From assembly GCF_001719125.1 (NCBI RefSeq), contig NZ_CP017006.1:1116001-1180000 (forward strand): DNA of 64,000 nucleotides. Reading direction: 5' to 3'. Below, one piece after another: positions 54,936-64,000 of the stretch; within the stretch, counting starts at the first letter, position 1, and each line of letters opens with the position of its first letter. A program made the translations under genes and the position numbers. Source of the stretch: Sulfolobus sp. A20 (GTDB lineage: Archaea > Thermoproteota > Thermoprotei_A > Sulfolobales > Sulfolobaceae). The notes below the pieces were generated by a model. The model saw only the letters and a program-made list of their open reading frames with translations. It had not been told where the DNA came from and searched no databases.

Positions 54936-55841
54936 ATGAGTAATCCTTATTATGGCCAACCTAATTGGCAACCATACGGTGGTTATCAGCAAAATCCCAT
55001 GATGTCTATGATGGCTTGTAATCAACCAATTGGATTAGGTGGTCAACAGCAAATAATTCCAGTTAATTACCCGATAAACTTACAATACGTAGTGCAACAA
55101 GTACAAATGTTTCTGATGGGACAAGGTTTTCAAGTTTTTCCCATGGTAGCACAAAACATGGCTGTGATTCAAGCTCAGCATTCTAGCATTTTAGGCACAT
55201 TAACGGATCAGAATAAGGCGTATACTATAAGAATATGTCAAGGACCAGGTTTTGTAATGGTTGAAACGGGAATAGCTAACTTGTTACAAGAATTGTTAGT
55301 AGCCGGGGCCACGTTTGGAGTAACGGACGAGTTACTGCATAATAAGTTAGCTGAGTTAGCAGGTGCAGGAATAGATGCCTATGGTATTTATAAGGAATAC
55401 GCGCAGGAGCAACAATTAATGAATATGATTATGATGATAGTGTCTAATGCTCCACCAGCATATCAGCAGCAACCTTATTATCCTAATCAGCAACCTTATG
55501 GTCCTCAACCATACTATCCCGGACAACAATATCAACCCTACCAGCCACCTATGCAACAACCACCTCCACAGCAATCAATATCTCAGCAACAATCATCTCC
55601 ACAGCAAACGGCCCAAGCAAAACAATCTCGTCAAACTATTAAATGCTGGAATTGTGGTCATGAAAATGAGGATATAGCAAAGTTTTGCGCTAATTGTGGA
55701 GCTTCATTATTACCAATTAAGTGTCCAAGCTGTGGTCATATAAACTCACCTAGTGCTAAGTTCTGTGAAAATTGTGGATATAACTTACGCCAATCATTGG
55801 GTCAACAAAGTTCCCAGCAATCAACTAAGCAACAGAAATAA
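54936..55841 (+). CDS. Double zinc-ribbon protein with Gln/Pro-rich linker
   Basis: 301 residues. N-terminal third Gln-, Asn-, Pro- and Tyr-rich (MSNPYYGQPNWQPYGGYQ), a middle domain of about 110 residues that looks globular, a low-complexity PQQ/PYQ linker (about 175-230), then two zinc ribbons, CWNCGHEN...CANCG and CPSCGHIN...CENCG. This resembles eukaryote-like disordered scaffolds in archaea. First gene of an uncharacterised block to 60863. Repeated QQ/PP tracts are Asn-free. Confidence 0.65.
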   Translation: MSNPYYGQPNWQPYGGYQQNPMMSMMACNQPIGLGGQQQIIPVNYPINLQYVVQQVQMFLMGQGFQVFPMVAQNMAVIQAQHSSILGTLTDQNKAYTIRICQGPGFVMVETGIANLLQELLVAGATFGVTDELLHNKLAELAGAGIDAYGIYKEYAQEQQLMNMIMMIVSNAPPAYQQQPYYPNQQPYGPQPYYPGQQYQPYQPPMQQPPPQQSISQQQSSPQQTAQAKQSRQTIKCWNCGHENEDIAKFCANCGASLLPIKCPSCGHINSPSAKFCENCGYNLRQSLGQQSSQQSTKQQK

Positions 55842-55867
55842 AAATTCTCCAAGCTTTGTTTTTTATA

Positions 55868-57223
55868 ATGGCTGTACTATACTTACCTTTTGCAATAGAT
55901 AAGGAGAATAGACAGCTCAATGTTGGAAAACAAATTGCTATTGGATTATTAAACCTAGATTTGGAGAGAAAAGAGCGCATAAGTAAAGCTATATTAATTG
56001 GCTGGCCTATTCTAATAAAGTCTATTGACCAGAAAAAGTTCTTAGTACTTGATTCTACGTTGACACTAGTTTCTAAACTTAATAGGAACTTGTATCCCGA
56101 CTACAAAGCAATACTAGAGGATGTTGCACAGAGTAGCAATATAGATGACTTCATATCTAAGCTTAAGAAAATTAGACTAGATGCGCGAGGTACGAATGAA
56201 GTTAGCTTAAGCGGTCTTATCAATCTAGATGTTAGTAAGCTAATAACGATTGCTAGAAGGGATAAGTACTATGAAATGTTCACTCTAGAAGAGAAAATAA
56301 CTGATCATGATATTAAATTAATTGGTAACAATTTAATTTCACTTAAGACCGAAGCAAATAGTACCATAACTTCCTTAGAATTTCTAGTAAATGAACTAAA
56401 TAATCTGAAGATAAAGTTTAAGAAACAGCTAGATGATAAGATAAACGAAATTACTAAGAAATATGAAGAGCTTATTAGACAAAAGATAAATGAGGTTGAG
56501 ACAGAGATAGCCAAGGCATCTCCTGAAATTATCAATGAAATACAGAACGAATTTGACCAGAACATTAAGAATAAGCTACTGACGAGCATAACTAATTACG
56601 TGATTTCTAATCTAAAGTATGAAGGAGGAGTTCTAGGTTCCCAAGATTTAGACAAGAGTAGAAGGGATTTAGATGAGGTCATAAATGAAATAGTAAGGGT
56701 TAAGGATAGAGTAGGTCAAAATTATGTTAATAAGATTAGGAGGTATAAGGGAGAAATTAATGATTTAGAGAAGGAAAAGAACTCTGAGCTATTCACGTTA
56801 AATGAGAAGATTAACGATCTAGAAAACGTTATAAATAACATTAGAGTTAATGCGGAAAGAGTAAAACAGGAAATTACTAGCTTTAATAAATACGTCAACT
56901 CGTTTTATTACGAGATAGATTCCAATGAAGATATAAAGTTAATAATACCATTTCTTTTAGCTGTAACTTCTACCAATAGAAGAATAGTTGTGGTGCCACA
57001 AGTCTATAATGGAAAGCAGAACATTTTAGGCAAAATTTTCAAGAGACAAGATCTTTCTACGCCTTTAATGAGTTACTTGGATGCATTTACTAATTACGTG
57101 AAGAATGTTGAAGCTGAGGATAACATAAAAATAAATTCCAGAGATATAGATAACGGTCTAAAAGAAATTAGTGATGATGGATGGAAAAGTAAAGAAAGTG
57201 TAGCAGACATTTATGTGCCTTAA
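55868..57223 (+). CDS. Coiled-coil protein, unknown function
   Basis: 451 residues. N-terminal globular region (about 1-150) then long helical/coiled-coil segments (about 160-350, rich in E, K, I, N) and a globular C-terminus. Start at ATG 55868 (MAVLYLPF), a few codons inside an earlier in-frame TTG. No nucleotide-binding motif. Coiled coils suggest a scaffolding or SMC-like bridging function. It starts 26 bases after the zinc-ribbon gene, likely the same transcript. Confidence 0.65.
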   Translation: MAVLYLPFAIDKENRQLNVGKQIAIGLLNLDLERKERISKAILIGWPILIKSIDQKKFLVLDSTLTLVSKLNRNLYPDYKAILEDVAQSSNIDDFISKLKKIRLDARGTNEVSLSGLINLDVSKLITIARRDKYYEMFTLEEKITDHDIKLIGNNLISLKTEANSTITSLEFLVNELNNLKIKFKKQLDDKINEITKKYEELIRQKINEVETEIAKASPEIINEIQNEFDQNIKNKLLTSITNYVISNLKYEGGVLGSQDLDKSRRDLDEVINEIVRVKDRVGQNYVNKIRRYKGEINDLEKEKNSELFTLNEKINDLENVINNIRVNAERVKQEITSFNKYVNSFYYEIDSNEDIKLIIPFLLAVTSTNRRIVVVPQVYNGKQNILGKIFKRQDLSTPLMSYLDAFTNYVKNVEAEDNIKINSRDIDNGLKEISDDGWKSKESVADIYVP

Positions 57224-57281
57224 TTTTACAGTTAAGTTGAGTGAAGTAAAAGTTATAAATAAGTAAAGTAAACTATACCAT

Positions 57282-57740
57282 ATGGAAGTAAGACATGAAA
57301 TAAAGTCAAGTTTCAAGATAAGTGAAGGAACAGAATTTGCTATATTGAATTTCTATAAAGACAACAAGCTTTCAGTTACGTCTTATGTGATATCCTCTGA
57401 ATTAAATAATGGAACAAAAGTGGGAATTAGTGCAATAACGGATAGTAAAGGAGAAGTTATGCAAATAATTTTTACAACGTTTAAATCTATTGAAAAGGAG
57501 GGGAAAACGTATAGAGAAGTTTACTCAAACCTCATTGACCTAGATTCAAGAAGGATAATTTATACCAAAGGTACCTTTGAACTAAGCGGGAAGCCTATGT
57601 CTAGAGAGGAGGTACTGGAAAGGCTTAAAGGTGGAGTAAAGAATCTAATCTCCTCATTACCTCTGAGAAGTATAGAAACTAAGGTGTTTAACATTGACAC
57701 CGGCGCAGAAGAGAATATTGGGTCTAGTGAAAAAGCCTAA
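57282..57740 (+). CDS. Unknown protein of the 55-61 kb block
   Basis: 152 residues, a mixed alpha/beta domain with no membrane helix. No motif recognised. Its last 47 bases overlap the start of the winged-helix gene at 57694, suggesting coupling. Confidence 0.55.
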   Translation: MEVRHEIKSSFKISEGTEFAILNFYKDNKLSVTSYVISSELNNGTKVGISAITDSKGEVMQIIFTTFKSIEKEGKTYREVYSNLIDLDSRRIIYTKGTFELSGKPMSREEVLERLKGGVKNLISSLPLRSIETKVFNIDTGAEENIGSSEKA

Positions 57741-58101
57741 AACATTTACTGAATTAAAGAGACTCACTGGTTTAACAGATGCTGGTTTATATAAGGCTAT
57801 AAAGGGTTTAGAGAAGCAAAACTACATAAAGAAGACTGAAATGGGATATATTATAACGCCAGAAGGTATGAAGGCATTAGGGTATAATGTAGTTGAACGT
57901 GAGGGAATAGTGATTATATATGAAAACTTGGAGAGGGATGATGTTGAGAAATTATATGAAGTTATTAAGAATATTAAAAATAAATCGAATTTTAGCATTT
58001 ATATTTATAAAAGCGAGGAAGAGGAAGAAAAAATCATCAAGGAGATAGCCAGAATTTATAGTACAGCTGTGTTATTCCCTGAACTCTTTACCAAACAATA
58101 A
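57694..58101 (+). CDS. Winged-helix DNA-binding protein
   Basis: 135 residues. The N-terminal half (KPKTFTELKRLTGLTDAGLYKAIKGLEKQNYIKK) reads as a wHTH with recognition helix GLYKAIKGLEKQN and wing GYIITPEG. The C-terminal half is a charged helix set. TTG start inside the previous gene, or an internal TTG at 57718. Probably a transcription regulator, maybe of its own cluster. Confidence 0.68.
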   Translation: MTPAQKRILGLVKKPKTFTELKRLTGLTDAGLYKAIKGLEKQNYIKKTEMGYIITPEGMKALGYNVVEREGIVIIYENLERDDVEKLYEVIKNIKNKSNFSIYIYKSEEEEEKIIKEIARIYSTAVLFPELFTKQ

Positions 58102-58108
58102 ACAATTT

Positions 58109-58690
58109 TTAGCTTATTTTCTTAAAAATTAAGAAATAATAAAATAAAGCTATTAAGGCTACGTATAGTATAAGGTCAGCATAATATGGAATGGGTAATA
58201 AAAATACAAATATTAAAATGAAAGGTAGGAAATAAATCAGAGGTCTGTATCTTGAGGCTCTTATGGACGGTCTATAGGGAGCATAAGAATTCGGAGTAGC
58301 GTAGATTGAACTCATAGCCAAATAAATTATTATGACATAAGGGTCGTATTGATCATTTAAGTAACCTTCTAACCCATTCTGTACCCTCTTTACCTCCCCT
58401 ACTTCAATGTTCCCAGATGTAAATATTTTTAGGGAATCTTGGTATCCCCTAATAAATGCCACTAACTGAGGTCTACTAACAAAGTAGTTGAACATGCCAT
58501 AATTAAGATTAAGCCTATTTATTTCTCCTACTTTAGAATTAAATTGAATTACATCATATTTCTCAAATCCTTTTCTCTTTAGAATAACGTTATAATTTCC
58601 CTCAACTTTTATTTCAGACCTCTCATATGAAACTTTTCCCACCGGGAGGCCATTGAAATATATATTTCCATTAGAATATTGAAATATCAT
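58109..58690 (-). CDS. Protein with two C-terminal membrane helices
   Basis: 193 residues. The first 140 are a soluble domain, beta rich, and the last 45 hold two hydrophobic segments (YFLPFILIFVFLLPIPYY and ILYVALIALFYYFLIF). The soluble part could be cytosolic or external. Family unknown. It converges with the preceding wHTH gene. Confidence 0.58.
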   Translation of the reverse strand: MIFQYSNGNIYFNGLPVGKVSYERSEIKVEGNYNVILKRKGFEKYDVIQFNSKVGEINRLNLNYGMFNYFVSRPQLVAFIRGYQDSLKIFTSGNIEVGEVKRVQNGLEGYLNDQYDPYVIIIYLAMSSIYATPNSYAPYRPSIRASRYRPLIYFLPFILIFVFLLPIPYYADLILYVALIALFYYFLIFKKIS

Positions 58691-58977
58691 CTTTAGAATC
58701 CCCTCATTCGTCTCTTTTTTGCTAATTTAAGAGCATATTTTCTGGATAAGATATATCTTCTCCCCACCATGTAAAAGTAGATATTATACGACTTCATTAA
58801 TCCTAAGTGGTATAATCGTGACTTGTATCCCATAACGATTTATTATTAGTATTTCATTATTTTTATATTTTCTCGCAATACCATGAAAAAGATCTTTTTA
58901 TTTTATACGGTAGAATTACCTTTATCCGTATTAAGCGCGGTAATCCTTTTTTAAGTTTATAATTAAGCTGTTTTGTG

Positions 58978-59496
58978 ATGAAGATAAACAGTGGCAGTAA
59001 AGATGACTTACTTAAATTTATAGTCGATAAGTATAACACAACTAACAAACCCATTTCTTTATCAGAAATTAAGAGGAAATTTAAGGATGATACGCTTAAT
59101 CAACTATTAGAAGGGTTAGAAAGAGAAGGTAAAATAGAAAAGGTTGAAAGCAGAGGTAAGATAAGTTACAAACCTATGATAGAAAAAGACGATATTAAAG
59201 AACAACTCAAAATTATAAGGGACGAGATACGTAGGATGAATGACTTACTTCATAAATTACTCGAAAATAGTAGGGAAATAAGTACAAGGGATTTCGACGA
59301 AGCCTATGAGAGAATTAAAGACTCTCTTGATTATGCCCCCTTAGAGAGAATAAGGATAGAGTTAGGAATGTCTAAGGAAGAGTTCTACTCAAAATTTAGA
59401 AAACATGTCGAGGAAAATTATGATCTTATAGCTGGGGGAGAAGAGGGATTTGTTAGAAGAGGATCTCTTTATGGAATAATAAAGAGGAGGAGATAA
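58978..59496 (+). CDS. wHTH-like charged protein paired with the ATPase
   Basis: 172 residues. The first 65 look like a winged helix (LSEIKRKFKDDTLNQLLEGLEREGKIEKVESRGKISYKP), followed by a coiled-coil (DDIKEQLKIIRDEIRRMNDLLHKLLE) and a helical C-terminal domain. ATG 58978 has a TATA-like tttataat box about 25 bases upstream. The ATPase gene begins three bases after its stop, so the two likely form a complex. Confidence 0.65.
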   Translation: MKINSGSKDDLLKFIVDKYNTTNKPISLSEIKRKFKDDTLNQLLEGLEREGKIEKVESRGKISYKPMIEKDDIKEQLKIIRDEIRRMNDLLHKLLENSREISTRDFDEAYERIKDSLDYAPLERIRIELGMSKEEFYSKFRKHVEENYDLIAGGEEGFVRRGSLYGIIKRRR

Positions 59497-59498
59497 TA

Positions 59499-60863
59499 AT
59501 GGTATGTGAAATACCTAGGGTAACCGTTACGACCTGGTCTTCTAAGGGAGTGATATTAGTAGGTCCTACTTATAGAAAGTATTTGGAAAAAGCACTATTG
59601 GTCATTAAGAATCACGAAGTAGCATCAGTGGTAGGTCAACCAGGTATGGGAAAGACTACTTTACTCAAGAAAATCGAAGAAGTGTCTAGTAAAGAGGACA
59701 TGCCCATATACTTAGACTTAGCCAACAAGGAAAGTATTGATAAAGAATTTTGGACAAAATTGAACGTATTTTCCCTAAAGAATAGGGCGCTTTCTGTTCT
59801 CTCTCAGAACAAATCAAAATTTGGTTATAGCTTTTGGAAGAGAATTTTAGGAATAAGATTCGAGGAATGGTTAGAAAAGGTTTGTGGAAGGTATGACGAC
59901 CCCTATCTCAGAATATACTGTATGAGTTACGATAGAAATCTGGACGGAATGATAAATGCTTTACGTGATATCAAAAGTTTTGTAAATCAAAGAAATATAA
60001 TCTTGCTAATTGATGAAATCAGGGAAAATCATCTAGCTCTATTACATAGGCTCATAAACGCTGGTTTAGAAATACCGATTATTATGGCTATACCAACAGA
60101 TATATATAGTAAAATAAGTGATTTGGCAATTAGAAGAAGGATAGAGGAAAGCAGAATTCCCTTAGATGATGCGTTAACTGAAGATGATATTAAAGAGATC
60201 ATAGAAGCATATTGTAAAGAATTATCACAAGATCTGTTACCTATAGTATTAACCTTATGGAAAAGCAAAGAACTAACTACTGTAAGCTCTATCCTACAGT
60301 TTGTAAGAAATGAAGTAGATAAAGTGGAAAAAGTGTGTAGTACCGATAATCTGGAGTGCTTCAAGGAAGAGCTTAAGAGATCTACAAGCTTAAAGAATCC
60401 TGAAGAAGACTCTAAGTTATTTGAAAAGAAAGTAAGGGATCTACTTAACAACATAAGTAAAGTCTATGGTATTACTTACGTTCATCCAAGGGGAAAGAGA
60501 ATAGAAGTTAGTGGAAAGAGTACTGTAATAGGCTTATTCTTTATAATAGATGAACAAGCCTATATAGGGGATGTGGTATTCACTAATGATGGTGAAATTC
60601 ATAATAAAGACGAAATCAGTTTGCTTAAAGATGTCGAGGAGATAGAGCACGAGAAGAAAGTCTACAAGGTTAGGGCTAAATTCCTAATAACTAATTCCAA
60701 TTTCGGCATTGATGGAGTAAAAGTATTGAACATACCTACTCTTGAAGTGGTGAAAATATTAAACGGCGACGTATTTCTATTAGAGGAAAGAATTAAGATT
60801 TTGTTCGAGGATTTTATCACGCCGAATATACAAGGTGAATCAAATAATAAAGTAATTACATAA
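59499..60863 (+). CDS. AAA/STAND-type P-loop ATPase
   Basis: 454 residues. Walker A GQPGMGKTT (about 46-54) and Walker B IILLIDEIRE (about 168-177) in an archaeal ATPase (MNS/STAND-like) domain; the C-terminal third (about 310-450) is a separate domain resembling a restriction-type or PD-(D/E)XK fold in its strand order (VRAKFLITNSNFGIDGVKVLNIPTLEV), though I see no complete active site. It is encoded with a winged-helix partner, a layout seen in archaeal regulators and defence systems. Function unknown. Confidence 0.7.
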   Translation: MVCEIPRVTVTTWSSKGVILVGPTYRKYLEKALLVIKNHEVASVVGQPGMGKTTLLKKIEEVSSKEDMPIYLDLANKESIDKEFWTKLNVFSLKNRALSVLSQNKSKFGYSFWKRILGIRFEEWLEKVCGRYDDPYLRIYCMSYDRNLDGMINALRDIKSFVNQRNIILLIDEIRENHLALLHRLINAGLEIPIIMAIPTDIYSKISDLAIRRRIEESRIPLDDALTEDDIKEIIEAYCKELSQDLLPIVLTLWKSKELTTVSSILQFVRNEVDKVEKVCSTDNLECFKEELKRSTSLKNPEEDSKLFEKKVRDLLNNISKVYGITYVHPRGKRIEVSGKSTVIGLFFIIDEQAYIGDVVFTNDGEIHNKDEISLLKDVEEIEHEKKVYKVRAKFLITNSNFGIDGVKVLNIPTLEVVKILNGDVFLLEERIKILFEDFITPNIQGESNNKVIT

Positions 60864-61037: not shown

Positions 61038-61818
61038 CTGACTTCCCCCCATTGGAGAGTTCCCCTAATTGATTCGTGTTTACCTCTCTCATGTGTCGAA
61101 AGGATCAGAGAATCATAAAGGTTTATTATACGTCCCTATCATTCTCATAACAATTAACACAACGAAAGTATCTATAAGTAACCTCTTTCATTTGCTACAC
61201 TTATAACAATGAGTAGTAGATGAGAAACTAGGGTCAACATAAACAACCTTAAGACCATGCTTCTTTGCCTTTCACTCAATCCAATATTGTTCAACACTTA
61301 TATACTTTAAAAGGAAAGAGATAAAGTGATAAATTCCTTGGATAACCTAGTATTGGCAACTCACCAATAACCCTAGTCCACACAACCATCCTCTCAAAGT
61401 CTAACTTATATGAGATATAAGGGGTTAACCTAACTGATACTTTACGTATTCTAGGATACCTAACCTCCTTAGGGTTCTTTAGCCAACCCTTGTATATTAC
61501 TATAGCATCCCTATAATAGCCTTGAGCTAACTTAGGGTGTAGGTTAAACTTTTCCTTTAAAATTTCATAAGCTGCCTTATGAACTTCCTTGATTAAGTTC
61601 TTCTTTAGCTTATTTTCCCTCAACCAATTGAGAACATATTTTAACCCTCTCTCATATGTTTCAACAAGGCTGAGCAGGGAAGCGATGTGAGAATCATGAG
61701 GCTAGTTGTAGCTATTTATTCCTAACCACCGTTCATACTGGCTTCTCTACTTACAGATGAAGAGAAAAGAGTTTATATACTTTGTCATCCCCACTCTGTG
61801 AGGCTTTCCTCCATTTGT
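61038..61818 (-). mobile_element. IS200/IS605-type element with decayed tnpB (781 bp)
   Basis: Minus-oriented. Right end (minus strand GGGGGGAAGTCAG) at 61038, left end ACAAATGGAGGAAAGCC at 61818. The left end carries a TATA-like AGTATATAAAC for tnpB. No tnpA. Full-length elements of this kind carry a tnpB of about 400 codons, so this one lacks at least 600 bases. It defines the family to which the smaller remnants belong. Confidence 0.82.
61126..61698 (-). pseudogene. tnpB: Degenerate, internally deleted tnpB (OrfB)
   Basis: Two parts survive. The N-terminal part, about residues 10-130 by comparison, reads ASLLSLVETYERGLKYVLNW and runs to a break near 61291, including LDFERMVVW and GELPILGYPRNLS. 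The C-terminal part, 61126-61285, shows WIE*KAKKHGLKVVYVDP then the zinc-finger remnant with premature stops (TGG to TGA twice) and a frameshift before YRYFRCVNC. The RuvC catalytic segment between them is gone, so no nuclease can be made. Confidence 0.8.
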
Positions 61819-61972: not shown

Positions 61973-63022
61973 TTGTTCTCTAATGACCCATCGACACTAA
62001 CTAGGAAGGAGAAGTTTGATAAAGAGGAGGTTTCTAGAGCAATAAGGAACGCAATTGCAGCAGAAATAGATGCAATAAATTTCTATCTTCAACAAAACAG
62101 ATACATAGAAGACGAGAAGCTTAGAAAAGTACATGAGGATATAACTAAAGAAGAGATGACTCACTTTGGAGAATTCCTAAGACTATTATACCAAGTCTCT
62201 CCTGAAGATTTTGAGTATTTTAAGAAAGGTTGGGAAGAGGCGTCAAAGCTTATTGGAGAAGTTAGACCTTTAACCCTTTCATCCCCAGAGAACGTGAGTA
62301 AAAATGAGGGAATCAATACGAATAATGAAGGGTTTCAAAGTTGGATATTTGAAGGGATTAATTCTAGTAGGGTAGTTAGGGATATAGGAAATTTGATTAG
62401 ATGGAATTCTACAACCATACCGTATTCAGAAATAACATTAAGTGAAGATAGTGTATCACAGGAAAAGAAATTATCAGTATATGATTTGACCTATATTTCC
62501 CTTGAAGTAAGGTATTATTTAGGTCAACTGACCGAAAAAAGAAGGGTATCAATATTAGCAGGTCATAGATTTGGGAGGATGGAAAACCTGGTTCTCCTTA
62601 AGGAACACCCGCTTTCCCCATTAAAGTTGGGCATTACAGTTAAAGCATCAGACTGGAGTCAAACTGGAAACATACTCAACGATGTATTAAAATCGTACGA
62701 AGTTTTAGCTAAAGATGGTTTTGGTAAAGGAATTTTTATTCTAATTTCCCCATCCAATTACGCTAAGGCATTTAGGACTATAGATCGTGCTGGGACTTTA
62801 GAAATAGAGATGATAAAAAGCTTAGGAAGTGTTATTCCAACTGATGTGGTTGAAGATAATGAGATATACGTTATAAGTAAATTTGGTTTTGACATTCTAT
62901 TATATTCTGATATAACAATAGAGCCTTTAGGAAAGGAAAAGGATTATGACGCTTATCTGATTTCAGAACAATTAGCTCCTAGACTTGTAAGTAGGAACGC
63001 AGCTTGCGTAATCAGACAATAG
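61973..63022 (+). CDS. Encapsulin shell protein fused to a ferritin-like domain
   Basis: 349 residues. N-terminal ferritin-like domain (about 18-95) with the metal ligands Glu in IAAEIDAINFY and Glu-Glu-x-x-His in TKEEMTHFGEFLRLL. A 30-residue linker follows, then an HK97-fold encapsulin (about 120-349) with SVYDLTYISLEVRYYLGQL, GHRFGRMENLVLL and C-terminal LISEQLAPRLVSRNAACV. This matches the fused Pyrococcus furiosus type. It should assemble into a nanocompartment that stores iron inside. TTG start, with a GGTG sequence seven bases upstream. Confidence 0.9.
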   Translation: MFSNDPSTLTRKEKFDKEEVSRAIRNAIAAEIDAINFYLQQNRYIEDEKLRKVHEDITKEEMTHFGEFLRLLYQVSPEDFEYFKKGWEEASKLIGEVRPLTLSSPENVSKNEGINTNNEGFQSWIFEGINSSRVVRDIGNLIRWNSTTIPYSEITLSEDSVSQEKKLSVYDLTYISLEVRYYLGQLTEKRRVSILAGHRFGRMENLVLLKEHPLSPLKLGITVKASDWSQTGNILNDVLKSYEVLAKDGFGKGIFILISPSNYAKAFRTIDRAGTLEIEMIKSLGSVIPTDVVEDNEIYVISKFGFDILLYSDITIEPLGKEKDYDAYLISEQLAPRLVSRNAACVIRQ

Positions 63023-63507: not shown

Positions 63508-64000
63508 TTAATGATATACCCATTTAATTTCTTCTGCTTTTTTCTTAAGATTTTTCAATACTATGTCTTCAAATCCCATTTCATAAGCTATCAATCTAAT
63601 CTCTCCTTTAGCTTTAAGGAGGCTTACCATTACATCTCCTGCTTGTGATAGGGAGCCATTTATTTGTACTTGGCTGATGTCCCCGTTAGTAATTGACATT
63701 ATTATTTCTAAGTTTTCTCCTAGTATTATAGCTCCCCCATACTTTACCGTATTAATTAATTCTCTCATTTTGGAGAGAATCTCATCTACGTTACCTTTCA
63801 AATTTATGATTTCATTAATGGAATAACCTTCTTCTATAGAAGGCTTAAAATATAAACTCAAGAACGGAATTATATGCTCCTTTACTAAGTGTTCTGCTAA
63901 ATTGAAATCTCCTCCGGAAAATATTCTATCAAAGACACCGTAATCCTGTTTATAATCCCCTATAATTTTTACCTTAGAAATACCCTTACTGGAATCTAAA
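63508..64000 (-). CDS. Unknown protein, 5' end beyond the window
   Basis: The frame is open from its stop at 63508 to the window edge at 64000 without a stop, so at least 163 residues are encoded and the start is not seen. The internal TTG at 63861 is not a convincing start, since homology-like, uninterrupted sequence (FSGGDFNLAEHLVKEHI) precedes it. The protein is helical with a Gly-rich strand (YGGAIILGENLEIIMS). Family not recognised. Confidence 0.65.
   Translation of the reverse strand, partial: LDSSKGISKVKIIGDYKQDYGVFDRIFSGGDFNLAEHLVKEHIIPFLSLYFKPSIEEGYSINEIINLKGNVDEILSKMRELINTVKYGGAIILGENLEIIMSITNGDISQVQINGSLSQAGDVMVSLLKAKGEIRLIAYEMGFEDIVLKNLKKKAEEIKWVYH

Follow-up and report, generated by a model that had tools for sequence, protein, structure and literature searches.

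A winged-helix-like protein and an AAA+ ATPase with a nuclease-like C-terminal domain are encoded by a recurrent gene pair in Sulfolobus sp. A20 and other archaea

Introduction

ORC1/Cdc6 proteins bind DNA through a winged helix-turn-helix (wHTH) domain, which is located behind the ATPase domain in the same chain. Tn7-type machines also combine an ATPase, a nuclease-type domain and a wHTH, and the ATPases TnsC and MuB work with a transposase encoded nearby. Here we compare these systems with two adjacent genes of Sulfolobus sp. A20, denoted F (58978-59496, + strand) and G (59499-60863, + strand). They are the last two of seven genes, A to G, occupying positions 54936-60863 of a 64,000-nucleotide stretch of contig NZ_CP017006.1 (positions 1,116,001 to 1,180,000 of the forward strand), hereafter the window; all gene coordinates are counted from its first letter. 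The original prediction for this locus described a block of six to seven genes at these positions, and seven open reading frames (ORFs) are indeed found there. They are real genes and not chance ORFs, because homologues of each of them, A to G, exist in other genomes. When B to G were compared with Pfam and NCBIfam, no family scored above its curated cut-off.

A possible precedent in the same genus is Cran1, an OLD-family ATPase-nickase of Saccharolobus. Its family is known from defence, and Cran1 itself has an apparently essential cell-cycle role (PMC12796447). Cran1 belongs to another family than the F-G proteins, and the likeness is one of analogy only.

Predicted domains and fold of F and G

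Both Walker A and Walker B motifs are present in G, confirming the expected P-loop ATPase. The predicted model of the protein (predicted local distance difference test score, pLDDT, 89) consists of an AAA+ part, approximately residues 1-298, and a C-terminal alpha/beta domain with eight strands, approximately residues 300-440. We searched for similar folds with Foldseek and passed the 1000 top-ranking chains on to VIA-align, which aligned 985 of them. The best structural match was Aeropyrum ORC2 (PDB 1w5t; Z 15.7, root-mean-square deviation 3.5, 234 aligned), followed by MuB (Z 15.3 and 14.9), BrxC (14.7), Cdc6 (14.6), TnsC (14.3), and DnaA (14.2), among others. As the top scores are nearly tied, the fold does not single out ORC, and the matches point to a shared fold, not necessarily to a shared function. 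The comparison of the G sequence profile with PDB yielded nothing specific.

With ORC1/Cdc6, in particular with the archaeal ORC2, G shares the AAA+ fold over approximately residues 1-297. Unlike ORC1/Cdc6, G is predicted to end in a nuclease-like domain, and the wHTH-like sequence sits in a separate protein, F. TnsC and MuB belong to the same AAA+ fold group (Z ∼13-15), but no transposase was noticed as a shared partner of F-G when the neighboring genes were clustered, a procedure that did not include a systematic transposase search. Weak profile similarity links G to ATPases of the ATPase_2 (PF01637) or STAND type, and the Pyrococcus abyssi structure 2qen aligns with Z of 12.9. However, G of the window scores 15.8 bits versus the ATPase_2 cut-off of 33.2; among 38 aligned G relatives, 18 match this model at E ≤ 0.1, the best with 1.4e-7.

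The C-terminal domain of G had been suspected of being nuclease-like, and motif evidence bears this out: it resembles the PD-(D/E)XK nucleases, with the catalytic triad broken in the window.

F consists of a winged-helix-like N-terminal part, a coiled-coil-like middle, and a conserved C-terminal domain. Positions 15-113 of its profile resemble MarR-type wHTH chains (best E 1.3e-4), and weak wHTH matches were obtained for F as well as for D. The C-terminal domain carries the conserved motif GG.EG...G..YGI..K and may be read as a second winged helix. From these sequence features, F is probably the DNA-binding partner of G. An alternative start of F is possible at the GTG at 58975.

The F-G pair in Sulfolobaceae

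We searched for each protein of the block in relatives and fetched 60 regions around matches to F, G, B or C-D. F is located directly upstream of G in all 41 Sulfolobaceae G genes of these regions, with gaps varying from −26 to +8 nt; in the window, 2 nt separate the two genes. The tight linkage of F and G proposed at the outset is confirmed. As the regions were picked by their matches, this count tests pairing, not presence. Presence was assessed separately: full-length G was found in 21 of the 22 family genomes in a 147-genome sample of the order, and F in 29 of 31 family genomes, both genomes of genus g8 being without it. A second F match is listed in 14 of these 31 genomes, the one in G090 being a fragment; fragments of G in G072, G090, and G125 were left aside from the G analysis. 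One F-like gene, in G131 (L275), is matched in two pieces and stands without G.

Loss of the nuclease signature

At the positions of the nuclease triad, where D..(D/E)xK would be expected, G of the window reads G..DxV. We aligned 38 of the 42 Sulfolobaceae G genes (41 fetched genes and the window; L079, L084, L090, and L180 were left out). The triad is intact in 15 rows, which constitute the accessory clade, and broken in the remaining 23. It is broken also in the four omitted genes, all of them resident, which gives totals of 27 of 27 broken triads in resident G, window included, and 15 of 15 intact triads in accessory G. Remnants of the motif persist in the resident proteins: L186 reads D..DxR, L178 retains the first D, and many retain K.

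In the likelihood tree of G, one branch with the support of 100/99 divides the 23 broken from the 15 intact rows; hence, one change suffices to explain the loss of the triad. The tree of F, with labels taken from the partner G, has the identical split (support 93/96, recovered in 92% of bootstrap trees), in a tree with four long-branch rows, one long-branch join for which a warning was issued, and ten open forks. Since both trees split alike, no exchange of partners between the clades is seen.

Resident-clade G is found in 27 of the 31 family genomes, in 23 by its position in the tree and in four (G050, G072, G146, and G152) by 52-70% identity. In G148 and G155, the sole F-G pair found is of the triad-intact kind. 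The wide retention of the resident clade speaks for a resident function. The original prediction had placed the block closer to regulation or defence than to housekeeping; for F-G, defence, transcription control, and chromosome upkeep all keep some probability, as detailed below.

The genome that contains the window has a second F-G pair with the triad intact (L114, contig C1, 35998-37916), so a triad-broken, putatively nuclease-dead form and a triad-intact, putatively cutting form can share one genome. A CRISPR-like array of 20 repeats lies ∼19 kb away from this pair. Near the accessory pair L115, there is a CRISPR-like array of 67 repeats, 2.7-7 kb off, and a gene with a PIN domain. The surroundings of the accessory pair L194 include genes of a Cas3-type helicase and an HD protein, a PIN-domain gene, and an array of four repeats ∼6 kb off.

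F-G outside Sulfolobaceae

Among the matches listed for the Sulfolobaceae G profile, those outside the family are short only. On reading of their loci, an F-like gene was found ahead of an ATPase of 250-275 residues. The F profile extends to further families; in the seven loci that we read there, the gene behind F encodes a longer ATPase, truncated by the end of the locus.

We then recounted the pairing with profiles from all groups in three sets of loci, nearly all outside Sulfolobaceae. An F gene no more than 81 nt upstream of G was seen in 11 of 12 loci collected with the G profile (first set, L216-L227) and in all 12 loci collected with the F profile (second set, L246-L257). The third set consists of 20 regions, eight of which are loci already counted in the first two, and 17 of the 20 have F at this distance. 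When named genomes were scanned with the longer G, the loci returned were titled Nitrosotalea, Nitrosotenuis, Nitrososphaera, and Nitrosopumilus, among others. In the set of Nitrososphaeria made up of the best 80 of 119 relatives, F is immediately upstream of G in 72 loci, and in two G is too near the locus edge.

Profile-profile comparisons support common descent of each of the two proteins across the groups. For F, they yielded E of 1.8e-19 over 162 columns (Nitrososphaeria) and 4.8e-8 over 127 columns; the G profiles matched with E of 1.1e-17 (400 columns) and 2.1e-22 (239 columns). Reciprocally, the Nitrososphaeria F profile recovers Sulfolobaceae F in 18 genomes of family f1. The profile from the short-ATPase families matches 30 of 179 genomes, including family f15 and none of family f1. 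Thus, F and G recur as neighbors in distant branches of one archaeal phylum, namely, Sulfolobaceae, Nitrososphaeria, and two further families. In L258 and L259, both from family f47, F is ∼400 residues long due to a large coiled-coil-like insertion.

The Walker A motif GxGKT is present in all 76 full-length Nitrososphaeria G proteins. The first D of the triad is also kept in 76 of 76; the (D/E)xK pattern was matched in one of them, and that match is doubtful. The G proteins of the short-ATPase families stop before the nuclease-like domain. By sequence, then, three groups retain the ATPase, whereas their nuclease signature is either broken or absent. Inspection by eye shows D..DxK in L262, the G protein of G182.

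Possible functions of F-G

The reading that we favor, at about even chances, is that F-G, the meaningful unit of the block, is an ancient operon of two genes that encodes an ATP-driven DNA-binding machine, the resident form of which is a nuclease-dead, domesticated version. F would serve as the DNA-recognition and assembly partner by means of its wHTH, coiled coil, and C-terminal domain. G would be an AAA+ ATPase of the initiator kind, like ORC, DnaA, TnsC, and MuB, which assembles on DNA together with F in an ATP-dependent manner, and its C-terminal domain would go back to a PD-(D/E)XK nuclease. The accessory copies may then be nucleases under ATP control, directed against DNA that is foreign or damaged. 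The resident copy, such as that of the window, would have lost the catalytic residues; still bound to DNA but no longer cutting it, it would work as an ATPase in the upkeep of the chromosome or in the regulation of this upkeep. The pairing of the genes, the common ancestry of both proteins, the conserved ATPase motifs, and the contrast in the triad between the two clades are observed, whereas the binding of F to G and to DNA, the difference between cutting and non-cutting forms, and the cellular role are inferred.

Several observations weigh against this reading. First, the pairing has exceptions: L220 has a G match without F, in L263 the two genes are 572 nt apart, in L275 (a Sulfolobaceae region) and L276 F stands without G, and in 6 of the 80 Nitrososphaeria loci, all titled Nitrosopumilus sp., no F is recognised. 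Second, the distribution is uneven. In the sample of the order, just four genomes outside the family have matches, which are short and confined to the ATPase end, and the Nitrososphaeria F profile matches 66 of 398 genomes of the phylum; such a patchy distribution means that F-G is not universal housekeeping. Third, the nuclease-like domain was recognised by motif and predicted secondary structure. The predicted order of its elements fits the PD-(D/E)XK core, but the structural rows cover mainly residues 1-298, and when ten fragments from the C-terminal part of G were searched against Pfam, the best result was a weak NERD match of a single fragment (E 0.024). Finally, resident G is called nuclease-dead from the motif only, and two resident proteins, L096 and L187, lack no more than the first D.

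A wider version of the favored reading is possible, although we would not expect it to hold in full. F-G might be an ancient chromosome-maintenance machine of the phylum, a split system of an ORC-like ATPase and a winged-helix partner, with a nuclease module under ATP control as its origin. Cutting would have been lost separately in resident Sulfolobaceae copies, in Nitrososphaeria and in the two short-ATPase families, the last of which would have lost the domain altogether, and nuclease-intact accessory copies, possibly defensive, would persist in the same cells. If so, a conserved operon of tractable archaea (Saccharolobus, Sulfolobus) and of ammonia-oxidiser lineages would have been undescribed so far, and the domestication of a defence-type nuclease for chromosome upkeep would become directly testable. 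A literature search found neither the F-G pair nor its parts named in titles or abstracts, within a coverage that excludes most subscription journals.

Among the alternatives, we consider a defence module first, doubtful as it is. F would sense invading DNA or a virus product, G would be a STAND-like switch, and the resident copies would have no nuclease of their own. At E ≤ 0.1, all 38 aligned G rows weakly resemble the nSTAND3 and AAA_22 models, in addition to the 18 that resemble ATPase_2, and the PADLOC model mad8 matches 34 of the 38 (best 1.6e-10), which would suit such a module. A literature search for mad8 found no paper, and its function was not used here. F, however, has no consistent match in PADLOC, the most frequent one being Csa3, weak and present in 11 of 37 rows. 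The accessory pair L194 has Cas3-type genes alongside. A CRISPR-like array lies within ∼20 kb in 3 of the 14 accessory pairs compared (arrays of 20, 67, and 4 repeats) and in none of 13 resident pairs, but the contrast is small (one-sided Fisher ∼0.12, calculated by hand, with the fifteenth accessory pair, on a short contig, left out), and we judged it too little to be used as evidence. Retention of resident-clade G in 27 of 31 family genomes is not what a defence module would suggest, nor did three accessory G proteins match any phage or plasmid record, in a search confined to accessory G. The origin of F-G from a mobile replicon was rejected, as accessory G had no match in phages or plasmids. 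When viral contigs were scanned with the alignment of G, at least three matches were obtained, restricted to parts of the ATPase end.

An ATP-dependent transcription regulator, for which MalT-like logic provides a model, is unlikely. F would bind promoters, and G would gate this binding by its ATP state. This could account for the wHTH-like sequence of F and for weak NB-ARC, NACHT, and nSTAND matches in G, and no third gene common to all resident pairs was seen in the mapped regions. On the other hand, the strongest structural match of G is the initiator-clade fold, and an ancestral nuclease-like domain would be odd in a pure regulator.

Other genes of the block

The last alternative, a single undescribed system for regulation or defence made up of all seven genes, is highly improbable. 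In its favor, the genes adjoin in the window, with A and B 26 nt apart, and one relative, G151, has the order TrxR-A-B-E-F-G, although E and F are separated there by genes for a resolvase and an OrfB-type protein. Against it, A is scattered, E lies on the opposite strand, C-D is missing between B and E in six of six relatives, B-E is apart from F-G in four of the six, and in other genera none of the 13 B regions fetched, which span 14 kb each, has A or any of C to G. The block as a conserved unit, as originally envisaged, is thus refuted; a functional link specific to this species may still exist. The seven genes as a single unit were rejected on synteny, which shows a patchwork of separable pieces: A, B-E, C-D, and F-G. 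Orthologues of the block are scattered and share no neighborhood, which is the result named in the original prediction as its own refutation, whereas F-G, and also C-D as a pair, do keep together.

The relatives in question are the six other genomes of the genus that we mapped: G131, G141, G146, G151, G152, and G153. In G153, the order is TrxR-B-E-F-G, without A. In G131, G141, G146, and G152, TrxR-B-E is ∼17-18 kb away from F-G. B and E are convergent in all six; their stop codons are separated by 7 or 29 nt, or the genes overlap by 10 or 27 nt. The gap, at most 29 nt there, is 885 nt in the window, where it holds C-D.

A (54936-55841, + strand) encodes an N-terminal domain, a QP-rich linker and, behind it, two zinc ribbons (Zn_Ribbon_1, E 5.5e-17). 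Long matches to A are scattered over genomes, with more than one copy in some species, and within the genus, A matches do not extend beyond the ribbons in five of seven genomes. In L085, L087, L089, and L090, a different zinc-ribbon protein is encoded divergently beside F, its likeness to A being limited to the ribbons.

B (55868-57223, + strand; alternatively starting from a TTG at 55856) was found in 17 of the 147 genomes of the order, all 17 in the family. Neither A nor B is a part of F-G. In the predicted model of B (pLDDT 92), a helical hairpin of ∼200 residues joins two small alpha/beta ends. Its best sequence-profile match is ZorA (E 0.0016), over the helical part only, and structure and profile searches gave no named fold. 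SMC-like and pore-forming functions were considered and rejected, as the structural matches are long-helix matches (Foldseek E ≥ 2.5e-3), with Z of at most 9.5, a level that the tool deems uninformative for long helices.

C (57282-57740, + strand), a small protein, is the first gene of the C-D insert and is present in three of the 31 family genomes, the one of the window included, with D adjacent in all three; the two further genomes with the overlapping pair are G090 and G154. D (57694-58101, + strand) encodes a wHTH protein and overlaps the end of C by 47 nt. Its TTG start is supported by the N-terminus MTPAQ(K/R)R common to three genomes, and D matches, mostly over the wHTH part, occur in 15 of the 31. 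Around the overlap (57694-57740), L182 and L183, where the genes overlap as well, resemble the window both in how C ends and in how D begins.

E (58109-58690, − strand), the neighbor of B within the genus, has C-terminal hydrophobic segments, as read from its sequence. It was found in 10 of the 31 family genomes, seven of them in the genus.

Genes downstream of F-G

A probable TnpB-type remnant lies at 61291-61623 (− strand), with 53% identity to a part of a 382-residue protein of L092, which itself has Cas12f1-like_TNB and OrfB_IS605 matches. The ORF at 63508-63861 (− strand) encodes 117 residues; its relatives in the genus have ∼269-282 residues, and the gene may be broken here. Between them, at 61973-63022 (+ strand), there is a gene for an encapsulin shell protein with a ferritin-like domain fused in front of it (Linocin_M18, 3.7e-20; EncB-type, 5.1e-15). 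The encapsulin gene comes after F-G in the genus, sometimes with intervening genes (a single one in G151), and is in pieces in G146 (L079) and G153 (L179).

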